Shown: piece by piece, positions 5,707 to 46,256 of the stretch
Layout of the letters: each line of letters begins with the position of its first letter
Numbering within the stretch: position 1 is the stretch's first letter
Source of the DNA: Hyphomicrobiales bacterium
Lineage (GTDB): Bacteria; Pseudomonadota; Alphaproteobacteria; Rhizobiales; Rhizobiaceae
NCBI GenBank assembly: GCA_900470805.1
Contig: UCCA01000004.1
Location: 1 to 64,000 of the forward strand
DNA length: 64,000 nucleotides
Reading direction: 5' to 3'
The notes under the pieces: model-generated
The model's input: the letters and a program-made list of their open reading frames with translations, nothing else
Database searches by the model: none
Told to the model about the DNA's origin: nothing
Translations under genes and position numbers: made by a program

Positions 5707-6483
5707 TTACCAGGACGGGATGAGCGCGCCCTTGAACTGCTCGTTGATGAACTTGCGGATGCTGTCGTCATGGTAGGATTCGACCAGCGTCTTCGCCCAC
5801 GGGGCGTCCTTGTCGGCGGTGCGCACGACGATGACGTTGGCGTAAGGCGACTTCTCGCCTTCGATGGCGATGGCGTCGGTTTTCGGGTGCAGGCCGGCTT
5901 CCATGGCGTAGTTGGTGTTGATGACGGCGGCATCGACGTCTTCGAGCGAACGCGGCAGCTGCGCGGCGTCGATTTCGGCGAACTCGATCTTCTTCGGGTT
6001 CTCGACGATATCGGCAACCGTCACCTTGATGCCGGCATCATCCTTGAACTTGATCAGGCCCTTGGAGGCGAGCACGAGAAGCGCGCGGCCGCCATTGGTC
6101 GGATCGTTCGGGATGGCGACGGTGGCACCTTCCTTCAGCTCGTCGAGGCTCTTCACCTTCTTCGAATAGACGCCCATCGGCGTGGTGATCGTGGTGCCGA
6201 TGCTGACGAGATCGAACTTGCGATCGGCGATCTGGTTGTCGAGATAGGGCTGGTGCTGGAACGAGTTGGCCTGGATATCGCCGTCATTCAGCGCCTGGTT
6301 CGGCACGACATAGTCGGAGAACTCGACGATCTCGATGTTGAGGCCCTTGGTCTTGGCGACCTCGGCGACCTTTTCCATGATCTGCGCGTGTTCGCCCGGC
6401 GTCACGCCGACCTTGATGTCCTCGGCGAGCGCCGATCCGGCGGCGAAGGCCGCGAGTGCGGCTGCGATGATGAACTTCTTCAT
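5707..6483 (-). CDS. metQ: Methionine ABC transporter substrate-binding protein
   Basis: A 258-residue NlpA/MetQ-family binding protein that captures methionine in the periplasm and hands it to MetNI. The signal peptide MKKFIIAAALAAFAAGSALA precedes the mature EDIKVGVTPGEHAQI. There is no lipobox cysteine, so it is probably a soluble periplasmic protein rather than a lipoprotein. The start at 6483 is supported by AGGAGAC just upstream; a longer frame to 6558 overlaps metI. It is the last gene of metN-metI-metQ, 37 bases after metI, and ends at a clear terminator. Confidence 0.94.
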   Translation of the reverse strand: MKKFIIAAALAAFAAGSALAEDIKVGVTPGEHAQIMEKVAEVAKTKGLNIEIVEFSDYVVPNQALNDGDIQANSFQHQPYLDNQIADRKFDLVSIGTTITTPMGVYSKKVKSLDELKEGATVAIPNDPTNGGRALLVLASKGLIKFKDDAGIKVTVADIVENPKKIEFAEIDAAQLPRSLEDVDAAVINTNYAMEAGLHPKTDAIAIEGEKSPYANVIVVRTADKDAPWAKTLVESYHDDSIRKFINEQFKGALIPSW

Positions 6484-6520
6484 GGGTGTCTCCTTTGCGT
6501 TTATCGGTTTTTTCTTGAAT

Positions 6521-7189
6521 TCAGCTCTTGCGGTTGCGCTTGTCGAAGCGCCGGGCAAGCCCGTCGCCGGCGCTCTGCACCAGTTGCACCAGCACGATCA
6601 GCACCAGCACCACGATGACCATCATCTCCGGATTGAAGCGCTGGTAGCCATAGCGGATGCCGAGATCGCCGAGCCCGCCGCCGCCGACCGCGCCCACCAT
6701 GGCGGAGTAGCCGATCAGGCTGACGATGGTCATCGTTAGCGCCATCAGGATGCTCGGTCGCGCTTCAGCCAGCAGCACCTTGAAGACGATCTGCACCGGT
6801 GTCGCGCCCATGGCGCGGGCCGCCTCGATCAGCCCCTTGTCGATCTCGCGGATGGCGGATTCGACCAGCCGCGCGAAAAACGGGATGGTGGCGATGGTGA
6901 GCGGCACGATCGCCGCCGCCGTGCCGATCGACGTACCGGTGATGAACCGCGTCAGCGGCACGATGGCGACAACAAGAATGATGAACGGCGTCGAGCGCGC
7001 CGCATTGACGATCAGCCCCAGCACGCGGTTGGTCTTCGGCGCCGGAAACAGCTCGCCCTTGCCCGAGGTGGCGAGAAACACGCCGATCGGCAGGCCGATG
7101 ATCGAGCCGATGATGCCGGCGACCAACACCATCTGCAGCGTCTGCATCATCGCCTTGGAAAGCAGGTTGTAGATCATATCAGGCGACAT
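6521..7189 (-). CDS. metI: Methionine ABC transporter permease
   Basis: A 222-residue inner-membrane permease with about five hydrophobic helices and the ATPase-docking loop [25 protein letters not shown], which fits the EAA motif of MetI-type permeases. The N-terminal [20 protein letters not shown] and the C-terminal [22 protein letters not shown] are characteristic of MetI. The gene begins inside metN (11-base overlap), which indicates translational coupling. Confidence 0.95.
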
Positions 7190-15995: not shown

Positions 15996-16140
15996 ACCCC
16001 CCTCTGTCACTATCGTGACATCTCCCCCTCAAGGGGGGAGATTGACCGCGAACGTCGCGCTATCTCTTAGGCAATGCGAGCGGCCGCCCCAACCGATCTC
16101 CCCCCTTGAGGGGGAGATGCCCGGCAGGGCAGAGGGGGGC
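15996..16140. repeat. RIME-like palindromic intergenic element
   Basis: About 145 bases with inverted termini: the left end CCCCCCTCTG...CATCTCCCCCTCAAGGGGGGAGAT is mirrored by the right end GATCTCCCCCCTTGAGGGGGAGATGCCCGGCAGGGCAGAGGGGGG. It sits between the isomerase and dehydrogenase genes, both read on the minus strand. Confidence 0.8.
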
Positions 16141-30799: not shown

Positions 30800-30926
30800 C
30801 CCCCTCTGCCTGCCGACATCTCCCCCACAAGGGGGGAGAAAGCTGGTGGCACCGCCCCTCACCTCGAAAGGCGAGAGCGCGGGGGCACGAAGCCCCTCCC
30901 CCTTGTGGGGAGGGGTCGGGGAGGGG
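30800..30926. repeat. Mosaic intergenic repeat between xylB and xylA
   Basis: Left part CCCCCTCTGCCTGCCGACATC then TCCCCCACAAGGGGGGAGA resembles the RIME left end; the right part CCCCTCCCCCTTGTGGGGAGGGG is a different palindrome that also appears at the left edge of the window. It looks like a hybrid of two repeat modules. Confidence 0.7.
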
Positions 30927-37646: not shown

Positions 37647-38318
37647 ATGACAGAGCTTTCCGATATGTCCGTGGGGGATTCACCATCGAGCGGAGGCCGA
37701 TGGGCTGCAGGAGAAGACCCTGCCAAGCGCAAGCAGATTCTCGACGGCGCCCGACGCGTCTTCATGAAGCTCGGCTTCGATGCCGCGAGCATGAACGACG
37801 TCACGCGCGAGGCCGGTGTCTCGAAGGGAACGCTCTACGTCTACTTCGCCAATAAGGAAGAGCTCTTCGCGGCGATGATCGAGAGCGAGCGCGCCGCGTT
37901 CGTCGCGGCCATGCGAACGACGCTTGCCGAGCACGAAGACATCGAAACCGGCCTGCATGATTTCGGCGTCGGCTTTGTTGCCCACATGACGGACGAAAAG
38001 ATTATCACTGCGATGCGCACGGTCCTCGGCGTGCGAGATCGCATGCCGGCGCTGTGTCAGCGCTTCTTCAACGGCCCGGAAAATTTGCGCACCATCCTGC
38101 ATGATTATCTCTCCCGCTACGTCGAGGCCGGCAAGGTCGAGATCGACGACATCGATCTGGCTGCCGCGCAGTTTCTCGATCTTGCCAGCGGCAGCTTCTT
38201 CAAGTTCCGTCTGTTCGGCAGCATGGAGCAGCCGCCATCGAGGCCCGACGTCGAACGCGTCATCAACGGCGCCGTGCGTATGTTCATGGCGACCTACGGC
38301 ATCCGCGGCGACCGCTGA
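37647..38318 (+). CDS. TetR family regulator of the efflux pump
   Basis: A 223-residue repressor. The helix-turn-helix is in RRVFMKLGFDAASMNDVTREAGVSKGTLYVYFANKEELFAAMI, the standard TetR signature, and the C-terminal helical part resembles the AefR-like ligand domain. The divergent HlyD/DHA2 genes and the two shared operators indicate local control of the pump. Confidence 0.92.
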   Translation: MTELSDMSVGDSPSSGGRWAAGEDPAKRKQILDGARRVFMKLGFDAASMNDVTREAGVSKGTLYVYFANKEELFAAMIESERAAFVAAMRTTLAEHEDIETGLHDFGVGFVAHMTDEKIITAMRTVLGVRDRMPALCQRFFNGPENLRTILHDYLSRYVEAGKVEIDDIDLAAAQFLDLASGSFFKFRLFGSMEQPPSRPDVERVINGAVRMFMATYGIRGDR

Positions 38319-38365
38319 AGCGTCGCCGGCCGTTTCGATGCGGGAATAAAACCCACCCAGCTTTC

Positions 38366-38445
38366 GTATACCCCCTTGCGCGCTTGCCAAGCTGCAGCGC
38401 AACATTACATTCGAGCGACCGCTAATGTGGCGCAAGGGGATATAC
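38366..38445 (+). ncRNA. Structured terC leader (candidate terC RNA motif)
   Basis: The 5' leader folds on itself: GTATACCCCCTTGCGC (38366-38381) pairs with GCGCAAGGGGATATAC (38430-38445), 15 of 16 positions. Inside are a small hairpin GCTT-GCC-AAGC (38382-38392) and a second one with ACATT/AATGT and AGC/GCT (38407-38428). The AAGGGG ribosome site lies in the closing stem, so folding would hide it. I recall a published cis-regulatory 'terC' motif in Alphaproteobacteria; identity with it is not checked. Confidence 0.65.
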
Positions 38446-38449
38446 ATAA

Positions 38450-39214
38450 ATGCAAGACATCATGATGCTCGTTCAGGACCCGGCCGCCTGGGTGGCCCTC
38501 GTTACCCTGGTGGTAATGGAAGTGGTCCTCGGGATCGACAACCTGATCTTCATTTCCATTCTCACCAACAAGCTGCCGCCGGAACACCGTGAAAAGGCCC
38601 GCAAGGTCGGTATCGGCCTGGCCCTGATCATGCGTCTGGCCCTGCTCGGCACCGTTGCCTGGATCGTCAAGCTGACGACGCCGGTCTTCGACCTGTTCGG
38701 CCACGGCTTCTCCTGGAAGGACATGATCCTGATCGCAGGTGGCCTGTTCCTTCTCTGGAAGGCGACCAAGGAAATCCACCACTCGGTGGACCCCGCCGAA
38801 CATGAGAACGATGCGGCGGCCAACGCGGTCACGACAAGCTTCGCCGCCGTCATCGGCCAGATCCTGGTGCTCGACCTCGTCTTCTCGGTCGACAGCATCA
38901 TCACCGCCGTCGGCATGACGCCGCATCTGCCGATCATGGTGGTCGCCGTGGTTGCCGCCGTCACCGTCATGCTGGTCGCCGCCACGCCGCTTGCCAACTT
39001 CATCGAGAAGAACCCGACCATCGTCATGCTGGCGCTAGGCTTCCTGATGATGATCGGCACGACGCTGATCGCCGAAGGCATGGGCTTCCACGTTCCCAAG
39101 GGCTACGTCTACGCCGCCATGGCCTTCTCGGCGCTGGTCGAGGTACTCAACATGTTTGCCCGCAACGCCAAGAAGCGAAAGCGCGAAGCGGCCAAGCAGG
39201 ATACCGTTCACTAG
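38450..39214 (+). CDS. TerC family integral membrane protein
   Basis: A 254-residue protein with seven or so membrane helices and the TerC signature aspartates: [20 protein letters not shown] near the start and [17 protein letters not shown] in the middle. TerC proteins are linked to metal export (manganese, tellurite resistance) and to metalation of exported proteins. The C-terminus is short and basic ([12 protein letters not shown]). Translation is probably controlled by the folded leader directly upstream; the gene ends at a large hairpin shared with gpx. Confidence 0.93.
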
Positions 39215-42686: not shown

Positions 42687-44456
42687 ATGACAACACAGCA
42701 GCTCCTTGCCTTCGGCGTCATCGGCCTGATGATGGCGGTCTTCATATGGGACCGGTTTCGTTACGATCTTGTGGCCTGCTGCGCACTCGTGCTGGCTGTT
42801 GCCGTTGGGCTCGTGCCATTTGAGCAGGCCTTTTCGGGCTTCAGCGACGACATCGTCATCATCGTCGGCAGCGCGCTCGTCGTCAGCGCCGGCGTCGCCC
42901 GTTCCGGCATTGTCGATACCGCGATCAAGCGCTTCTTTCCCAATCTGGACACGCTGCATGCCCAGTTGGCGCTGCTTTTGATCGTCGTCGCCTTGCTCTC
43001 GGCCTTCATCAAGAACATCGGCGCGCTGGCGATCATGATTCCGGTCGCCTTCCAGTTCGCCCGTAAGAGCGGCAAGTCGCCTTCGCTTTATCTGATGCCG
43101 ATGAGTTTCGCGGCCCTGCTCGGCGGCCTGATGACGCAGATCGGCACCTCGCCGAACATTGTCGTCTCGCGCCTTCGCGGCGAGATAACAGGCACACCCT
43201 TCACCATGTTCGACTTCACCCCCGTTGGCGCGACGCTGGCGTTTGTTGGCGTTACCTTCCTGATCTTCTTCCACTGGTTGGTACCCGAGCGGAAGAACGA
43301 AAACCCGTCTCTGGAAGAAGCTCTCGACGCCAAGGCCTACTTTTCCGAAGCCACGGTGGCAGAGGAATCGACCGTCGAGGGCAAGCCGCTCAGCGACTTG
43401 CTGAAACTCGGCGACGGCGATGCCGTGGCAACCGCGATCCTGCGCGGCCATACCCGCCTCTCGCCCTTTCCCGATATCGAGCTCAGGAACGGCGACACAT
43501 TATTGCTCGAAGGAAGTCCCGACGCGCTGGACCGCATTGTCTCCAACGCCAAGCTCAAACTCTCCGGCAAGCCGATCGCCGATCCCGCCGAGCGCAACGA
43601 CCTGATCTCGATCGAGGCGATCGTCGCTTCCGAGTCGCAGCTTGTCGGCTGGTCGGCGCGGCAGCTGTCGCTCTCCAACCGCCGCAGCGTCAATCTTCTC
43701 GCCGTCTCCCGCAAAGGCCACAGGCTGAACGAACGACTAAGCGAAGTCAGGTTGCGCGCCGGCGACGTGCTGGTGTTGCAAGGCAGCCGGCGCAATCTCC
43801 CCGCCTTCCTTCAGGAATTCGCATGCTTGCCGCTTGCGCAGCGCGACATCATGCTCGGCACTTCGCGCCGAGCATACGTGCCGCTCCTGATACTCATCAC
43901 CGCCATGGCCGCCACCGCGACGGGCATCGTACCCGTCGCCGTCTCCTTCTTTTGCGCGGCACTCGCCATGGTCGTCTTCCGGGTCATCCCGCTGGTTGAC
44001 GTCTACAAGGCACTCGACGCGCCGATCCTGATCATGCTTGCAGCCCTGATCCCGGTCTCCGATACGCTGCGAACGACCGGCGGCAGCGAGCTGATCGCCG
44101 GCTGGCTCGGCCACCTTGCCGCGCAGATGCCGCATTACGGAGCGCTGGCGCTGATCCTGATCACCGCCATGGCAGTGACGCCCTTCCTCAACAACGCCGC
44201 CACCGTGCTGGTCATGGCGCCGATCGCCGCCAGTTTCGCGCAGACCCTAGGATACAGGCCGGACGCCTTCCTGATGGCGGTGGCGATCGGCGCCGGTTGC
44301 GATTTCCTTACCCCGATCGGCCACCAGTGCAATACGCTTGTCTTCGGCCCGGGCGGCTATCGCTTCAGCGATTACCCCCGCCTTGGCCTGCCGCTGTCGC
44401 TGCTCATCATCCTCGTCAGCGTACCGCTGCTGCTCTGGGTCTGGCCAGTCGCCTGA
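42687..44456 (+). CDS. SLC13/DASS-type anion transporter with RCK_C domains
   Basis: A 589-residue transporter: N-terminal helices up to about residue 200, two soluble TrkA-C (RCK_C) domains (about 205-290 and 300-385, each ending in a GDxLLLEG/GDVLVLQGSR strand), then further helices. LSAFIKNIGALAIMIPVAFQFARKSG and LTPIGHQCNTLVFGPGGYRFSDY are the two conserved SNT-like re-entrant regions. Related proteins carry sulfate, dicarboxylates or sodium and protons. The ATG lacks a clear ribosome site; the true start could lie upstream. Confidence 0.87.
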   Translation: MTTQQLLAFGVIGLMMAVFIWDRFRYDLVACCALVLAVAVGLVPFEQAFSGFSDDIVIIVGSALVVSAGVARSGIVDTAIKRFFPNLDTLHAQLALLLIVVALLSAFIKNIGALAIMIPVAFQFARKSGKSPSLYLMPMSFAALLGGLMTQIGTSPNIVVSRLRGEITGTPFTMFDFTPVGATLAFVGVTFLIFFHWLVPERKNENPSLEEALDAKAYFSEATVAEESTVEGKPLSDLLKLGDGDAVATAILRGHTRLSPFPDIELRNGDTLLLEGSPDALDRIVSNAKLKLSGKPIADPAERNDLISIEAIVASESQLVGWSARQLSLSNRRSVNLLAVSRKGHRLNERLSEVRLRAGDVLVLQGSRRNLPAFLQEFACLPLAQRDIMLGTSRRAYVPLLILITAMAATATGIVPVAVSFFCAALAMVVFRVIPLVDVYKALDAPILIMLAALIPVSDTLRTTGGSELIAGWLGHLAAQMPHYGALALILITAMAVTPFLNNAATVLVMAPIAASFAQTLGYRPDAFLMAVAIGAGCDFLTPIGHQCNTLVFGPGGYRFSDYPRLGLPLSLLIILVSVPLLLWVWPVA

Positions 44457-46153: not shown

Positions 46154-46256
46154 CCCCCTCACCCTACCCTCTCCCCGGGGGGAGAGGGGGAGCGAGCTGC
46201 CAGTTCGGAGTCTCTTCTCCCCTCGGGGAGAAGGTGCCGGCAGGCGGATGAGGGGG
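46154..46256. repeat. Palindromic intergenic repeat between gltX and lysS
   Basis: Two hairpin modules, CTCTCCCCGGGGGGAGAG on the left and CTTCTCCCCTCGGGGAGAAG on the right, are flanked by CCCCCTCA and TGAGGGGG. The right side GGTGCCGGCAGGCGG resembles the GCCCGGCAGG part of the RIME-like elements, so it is probably a related but distinct class. Confidence 0.7.

Follow-up and report, generated by a model that had tools for sequence, protein, structure and literature searches.

The yybP-ykoY manganese riboswitch precedes TerC-type genes in other bacteria. In phage T4, the leaders of gene e (lysozyme) and I-TevI carry a late promoter within the 5′ strand of the helix that hides the Shine–Dalgarno sequence (SD); long gene e RNAs hide the SD, while RNAs from the late promoter, which lack the 5′ strand, are well translated (accessible sections of PMC3014915). 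Promoters of the ECF26 group of sigma factors share a cross-species consensus of -35 GGAATA and -10 GT, and the regulons of S. meliloti RpoE1 and RpoE4 include sulfite oxidation and others, with terC mentioned nowhere in the accessible sections of the same source (PMC6180224). TerC is named only as a tellurite protein in the accessible part of PMC3557214, and ‘terC’ is absent from the accessible main text of two R. etli papers (PMC3188799 and PMC4167512). The literature searched, with most subscription papers outside its scope, contained no report of an ECF–terC link in Rhizobium; it contained nothing joining ECF26 with TerC or GGAATAAAA with an ECF sigma factor, and nothing joining terC, a riboswitch, an RNA motif and the Alphaproteobacteria.

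Here, we analysed the leader of a terC gene within a 64,000-nucleotide stretch of DNA (the window) together with leaders from related genomes. Sequence comparison and folding make it rather probable that positions 38343–38449 form a two-promoter control region rather than a ligand-sensing leader, in which predicted transcription starts would gate translation in the manner of T4 gene e.

A folded leader covers the ribosome site of terC

The features of the locus are as follows.

37647–38318, + strand, TetR/AefR-like regulator gene and possible source of read-through (ORF; PF00440, PF14246)
38343–38370, + strand, putative ECF-type promoter (-35 GGAATA at 38343–38348, N16, -10 CGTATA at 38365–38370)
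38366–38381, + strand, 5′ arm of the closing stem, overlapping the -10 box and the predicted ECF start
38372–38375, + strand, CCCC, the anti-SD run within the 5′ arm, partner of the SD GGGG
38375–38380, + strand, predicted ECF-dependent transcription start (by transfer from nine ECF26-type promoters of S. meliloti, PMC6180224 Table 1)
38382–38400, + strand, first inner hairpin (MFE fold), containing the sigma70-like -35 box; 53.4% of cells paired in relatives
38383–38411, + strand, putative sigma70-like promoter (CTTGCC at 38383–38388, TACATT at 38406–38411)
38406–38429, + strand, second inner hairpin (MFE fold, pair counts), whose 5′ strand is the sigma70-like -10 box
38430–38445, + strand, 3′ arm of the closing stem, containing the SD AAGGGG at 38434–38439
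38450–39214, + strand, terC, encoding a TerC-family membrane protein of 254 aa (ORF; PF03741, 172.5 bits)

The terC protein did not reach the cut-offs of the NCBIfam models YkoY, YjbE and Alx. In its leader, the two arms pair at 15 of 16 positions, with a mismatch between C38371 and A38440, and in the MFE fold of 38366–38452 this closing stem encloses both inner hairpins. The SD lies inside the 3′ arm, ten bases 5′ of the ATG at 38450. The fold reaches −35.7 kcal/mol (z −4.72), a stability equalled in none of 200 dinucleotide shuffles. Fold and shuffles together confirm the architecture that an earlier note on this DNA had described, a closing stem with one mismatch around two inner hairpins and an SD 10 bases before the ATG, and its statement that the stem hides the SD is borne out for any RNA containing the whole stem. 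The frame matters, as a wider one (38319–38464) gave a z of only −1.29 with 21 of 200 shuffles equally stable, and the leader from 38377 onward or from 38418 onward gave z values of 0.01 and 0.57.

When the 100 nt 5′ of the 3′ arm were mononucleotide-shuffled 20,000 times, a 16-mer able to pair with that arm at 15 of 16 positions arose in 3 cases. Across the 64-kb window, 57 inverted-repeat placements of similar quality were detected (loop 30–70, at most one mismatch, G-U allowed), many of them, among the 40 placements listed, being a single repeat in shifted registers. A long inverted repeat at 16019–16119 is perfect with G-U pairs in most registers, and 16-position arms slide over 11 registers within it; other repeats of similar quality were found at 6450–6545, 30819–30914, 42723–42811, 44214–44296 and 46165–46236. 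What is unusual about the terC repeat is that it covers the SD and recurs in relatives.

A probable ECF-type promoter is shared with a sigma factor gene

The GGAATA-N16-CGTATA sequence ahead of terC has the features of ECF26-type promoters, a -35 GGAATA, a GT in the -10 and ECF spacing; the spacers in nine S. meliloti ECF26-type promoters measure 14–16. The pattern matched once in the window against 0.02 matches expected. In the 6.49-Mb genome, GGAATA-N15..17-CGTATA occurred twice (once for the reversed pattern), in the terC leader and at G000:C27:180769-180796, where the match ends 7 nt 5′ of a 179-aa ECF sigma gene. An ORF of 257 aa overlaps this gene; it has no Pfam match, and its anti-sigma hits are weak and fall below cut-off. 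The sigma product matches NCBIfam PRK12511 (297 bits), a model that names no ECF group. The motif, together with the way the sigma and anti-sigma genes are arranged, leads us to infer a sigma factor of an ECF26-like group.

At L141 954–1493 and 1598–1993 (contig C27), the sigma operon adjoins a MerR-type regulator gene and an apparent metal P-type ATPase gene, the latter named by eye from its ORF.

Among 37 genus genomes, the pattern stood directly 5′ of the sigma gene in all 37 and before terC in 23, a perfect match being absent at terC in 14; the tally came to 71 matches, 11 of which lay at neither gene, compared with 30 for the reversed-pattern control in the same genomes. In two further genomes searched, G040 and G055, the pattern was absent, and their best sigma matches were 60% and 39% identical. 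Sharing of the motif between the sigma gene and terC is what an ECF operon under its own control, with terC as a second conserved target, would show, and we regard the ECF promoter at terC, and its link to that sigma factor, as very likely. At the sigma gene itself, CGTATA lies 7 nt from the ATG in all 30 loci read (L143–L172), so the sigma mRNA probably has little or no leader.

The ECF-dependent start at 38375–38380 was predicted from nine mapped starts in PMC6180224 Table 1, in rows tied to RpoE1, RpoE3, RpoE4 or RpoE6. Rows with RpoD/RpoH-like motifs according to PMC6180224 (rpoE3, SMb20556, SMc04046 and ribH2) were omitted, as were rpoE6, rows shared with RpoE2, an sRNA row and SMa0139, in which CGT is missing at the expected place. 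Bold start marks are lost in the text version of the table, and the last letter of each promoter sequence was used as the start base because the lowercase letter is last where both mapping methods agree. For SMc02156, the adjacent AGAATT was used as the -35 and the CGT-based value was identical (38375). The predicted start falls within the 5′ arm, and an RNA begun there would retain at most one base of the anti-SD run.

A probable sigma70-like promoter lies inside the fold

Leaders were collected from 80 of 394 relatives and combined with the window, giving 53 with the ECF pattern (ECF+; 52 distinct from CGTA on) and 28 without (ECF−). In the window, TTGCCA-N16-TACATT is the sole sigma70-like match in 38250–38500. 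CTTG-N18..20-TA.A.T was found in 53/53 ECF+ leaders, always with a spacing of 19 nt, where mononucleotide shuffles predict 0.21 leaders, and the strict CTTG/TA.A.T pattern was present in 5 of 28 ECF− leaders. The CTTG and TA.A.T boxes, their promoter spacing and their conservation make a sigma70-like promoter within the leader loop likely. Going by usual promoter spacing, its start would presumably lie at 38417–38419 (about 38418). The earlier note had held that a start downstream of 38381 would tell against its folded leader; the predicted sigma70-like start does lie downstream, but the predicted ECF start lies upstream of that position.

Computed accessibility of the SD depends on where the RNA begins

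The computed probability that the SD is unpaired, P(SD unpaired), changed sharply with the 5′ end of the RNA. With the 5′ end at 38343 the mean was 0.16 and the SD was hidden (P < 0.25) in 41 of the 52 distinct leaders, being poorly hidden even in this long RNA in 11 of them. It was still hidden in 40/52 with the 5′ end at 38372, in 3/52 at 38374, and in 0/52 at 38375–38379, where the mean reached 0.62–0.66. The switch in accessibility thus comes between 38372 and 38375, immediately before the predicted ECF starts.

When each leader was compared with 20 shuffles of its upstream sequence, the 53 ECF+ leaders (window included) had a mean P(SD unpaired) of 0.19 versus 0.42 for shuffled sequence; for the 28 ECF− leaders the values were 0.42 and 0.44. 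The SD was hidden below all 20 shuffles in 24/53 ECF+ leaders and 3/28 ECF− leaders.

An upstream gene may supply read-through RNA

A co-directional upstream gene was recognised in 49 of 52 ECF+ loci from the relatives. Grouped by C-terminal sequence, the upstream same-strand frame was TetR-like in 13 and AraC/GyrI-like in 36, with one example of each confirmed by Pfam. As for the exceptions, the longest frame at L077 and L131 was another one, and L065 reaches the end of its contig. In 20/52 loci, GGAATAA supplies the stop codon (TAA) of the upstream gene. No terminator-like site was found in 38250–38500, and upstream RNA running into terC is plausible. Read-through might be terminated in R. 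leguminosarum-like leaders, where visual inspection showed an inverted repeat 5′ of GGAATAAAA.

Conservation of the stem and alternative explanations

Covariation in the closing stem among homologues, on which the earlier note had staked its reading, was looked for and is absent. Across the 52 distinct leaders, two-sided changes occurred at 2/15 pairs (shuffled mean 1.9) and the covariation score was 0.065 versus 0.068 shuffled. Two alignments were available, A1 with 34 hand-picked leaders of the 53 ECF+ and A2 with all 53, both including the stemless L098 and L100. The 34-leader subset agreed (2 two-sided pairs vs 2.3 shuffled), and RNAalifold applied to it returned seven short pairs, the closing stem not among them. 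Selection for pairing is therefore not demonstrated by covariation. Closing-stem cells were nevertheless paired in 84.7% of cases versus 30–76% with partners slid by 1–3 columns (52 leaders). In an arm-swap test allowing register shifts, native arms gave −21.19 and permuted arms −20.45 kcal/mol, with 15 of 5000 permutations as good; native arms beat the swapped mean in 34/52 leaders, a small advantage in a statistic that ignores kinship. Taken together, the comparative evidence for selected pairing in the stem appears mixed.

It is possible, if somewhat doubtful, that both promoters are real and the stem has no function, its arms being constrained as promoter/start and as SD, and their pairing incidental or inherited from one ancestor. 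In its favour, covariation is absent, the window contains a fair number of other long inverted repeats, and L098 and L100 keep the promoter match with the stem absent. A functionless stem is harder to reconcile with CCCCTTGCG, which is missing downstream of the sigma gene’s own promoter, so that ECF recognition offers no explanation for its presence in the terC leader. It is also at odds with the CGC 5′ of the SD, invariant in all 53 rows though neither promoter box nor SD, and with the hiding of the SD in ECF+ leaders beyond that of shuffled sequence.

In the two stemless leaders (L098 and L100, from Rhizobium sp. FKY42 and R. lemnae), CCCCTTGCG lies inside the ECF promoter spacer, ~110 nt 5′ of terC, and GCGTA stands at the -10, as might result from a deletion that recreated the promoter with unchanged spacing.

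The inverted repeat could also be a DNA operator, offering two half-sites to a regulator such as the neighbour, given that it brackets the sigma70-like promoter and adjoins a regulator gene. We think this unlikely, as the repeat is kept while the neighbour varies, TetR-like or AraC/GyrI-like by locus, arm spacing varies, and one arm contains the SD itself.

The earlier note took the whole 38366–38449 fold for a translational riboswitch or thermosensor, a claim left unsupported here. A riboswitch for a metal or other ligand would account for a stable multi-helix fold with a hidden SD, and genes of this family are riboswitch-controlled elsewhere, to judge from the NCBIfam model names R_switched_YkoY, YjbE and Alx. 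We consider it very improbable. An Rfam search of the window at gathering score and of the leader up to E 10 gave no riboswitch or thermometer-family match; at the permissive threshold the leader had three weak matches, to microRNA models on the other strand. There is no covarying aptamer core, and the invariant columns of the 53 ECF+ leaders are mainly GGAATAA, CGTA, CTTG, TA.A.T and the CGC before the SD; the conserved blocks within the fold are promoter boxes. The CGTA-to-ATG length varies between 83 and 115 nt, core insertions included, the inner hairpins are poorly kept in relatives (53–76% of cells paired), and the predicted starts lie at or past the end of the anti-SD run and would remove it.

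Two narrower statements of the earlier note hold. Neither the window nor the leader gave an Rfam match to the yybP-ykoY manganese riboswitch, whose conserved loops the note had not seen in this leader. A separate terC RNA motif does exist, as Rfam RF03067 (59 positions; matches in 114/199 family genomes), and the terC leader is another element, without a match to this covariance model in the window (gathering) or leader (E 10). Under stricter filters, RF03067 has one match in the source genome, on contig C62 (L051 1501–1563), before a DUF475/TerC paralogue.

An RNA thermosensor opening at raised temperature, to which the sequestered SD might point, is least likely of all, since the computed P(SD unpaired) of the full fold was 0.001 at 20 °C, 0.003 at 42 °C and 0.007 at 60 °C, so that the SD stays closed when heated (accessibility <1% at 60 °C), and no thermometer family matched in Rfam.

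A proposed two-promoter control of terC

In the two-promoter reading, an autoregulated ECF26-like sigma factor would start terC RNA from GGAATA-N16-CGTATA, and the housekeeping sigma factor would start it further in, from CTTG...TACATT. With both putative promoters inside the hairpin, RNAs made from terC’s own promoters probably begin too far in to form it; retaining at most one base of the CCCC run, they would leave the SD open and terC translatable. An RNA arriving from the co-directional upstream gene would carry the whole stem and its SD would be locked, making terC expression dependent on the firing of one of its own promoters. The stem would at most mute messages running in from the upstream gene, and we suggest only tentatively that it serves this purpose. 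The broader proposal, which we put forward with similar reserve, is that translation of a chromosomal gene may be gated by where its RNA starts, the ECF start lying in the anti-SD strand, that this arrangement may be kept across many Rhizobium species, and that terC may be the second conserved target in a small, self-regulating ECF26-like regulon.

The analysis names a candidate regulator in Rhizobium for terC, a member of a gene family linked to metal handling. It also points to a trap in riboswitch hunting, in that a strongly folded leader concealing its ribosome site can turn out to be a promoter region, with a stem that the gene’s own RNA probably lacks. Should the stem indeed mute read-through RNA, a bacterial stress regulon would share a device known from phage T4.

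Comparison with known systems

Unlike yybP-ykoY, the terC leader has no Rfam match. Like RF03067 in the source genome, it precedes a gene of the TerC superfamily, but it differs in lacking a match to that covariance model. With the ECF26 promoters of S. meliloti RpoE1 and RpoE4, it shares the GGAATA -35 and the GT in the -10, and the sigma gene with its overlapping membrane-type anti-sigma ORF and apparent autoregulation likewise resembles those systems, as far as described in the accessible sections of PMC6180224 and PMC3511301; unlike the S. meliloti promoters, the terC leader has CGTATA as its -10. The closest parallel in the gating of translation is T4 gene e. There, an RNA started upstream hides the SD, and an RNA from a promoter within the 5′ strand lacks that strand and leaves the SD open; for terC, the computed accessibility and the predicted starts suggest the same plan. 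The two differ in that terC is a bacterial chromosomal gene, with promoters of ECF type and sigma70 type in place of the T4 late promoter.
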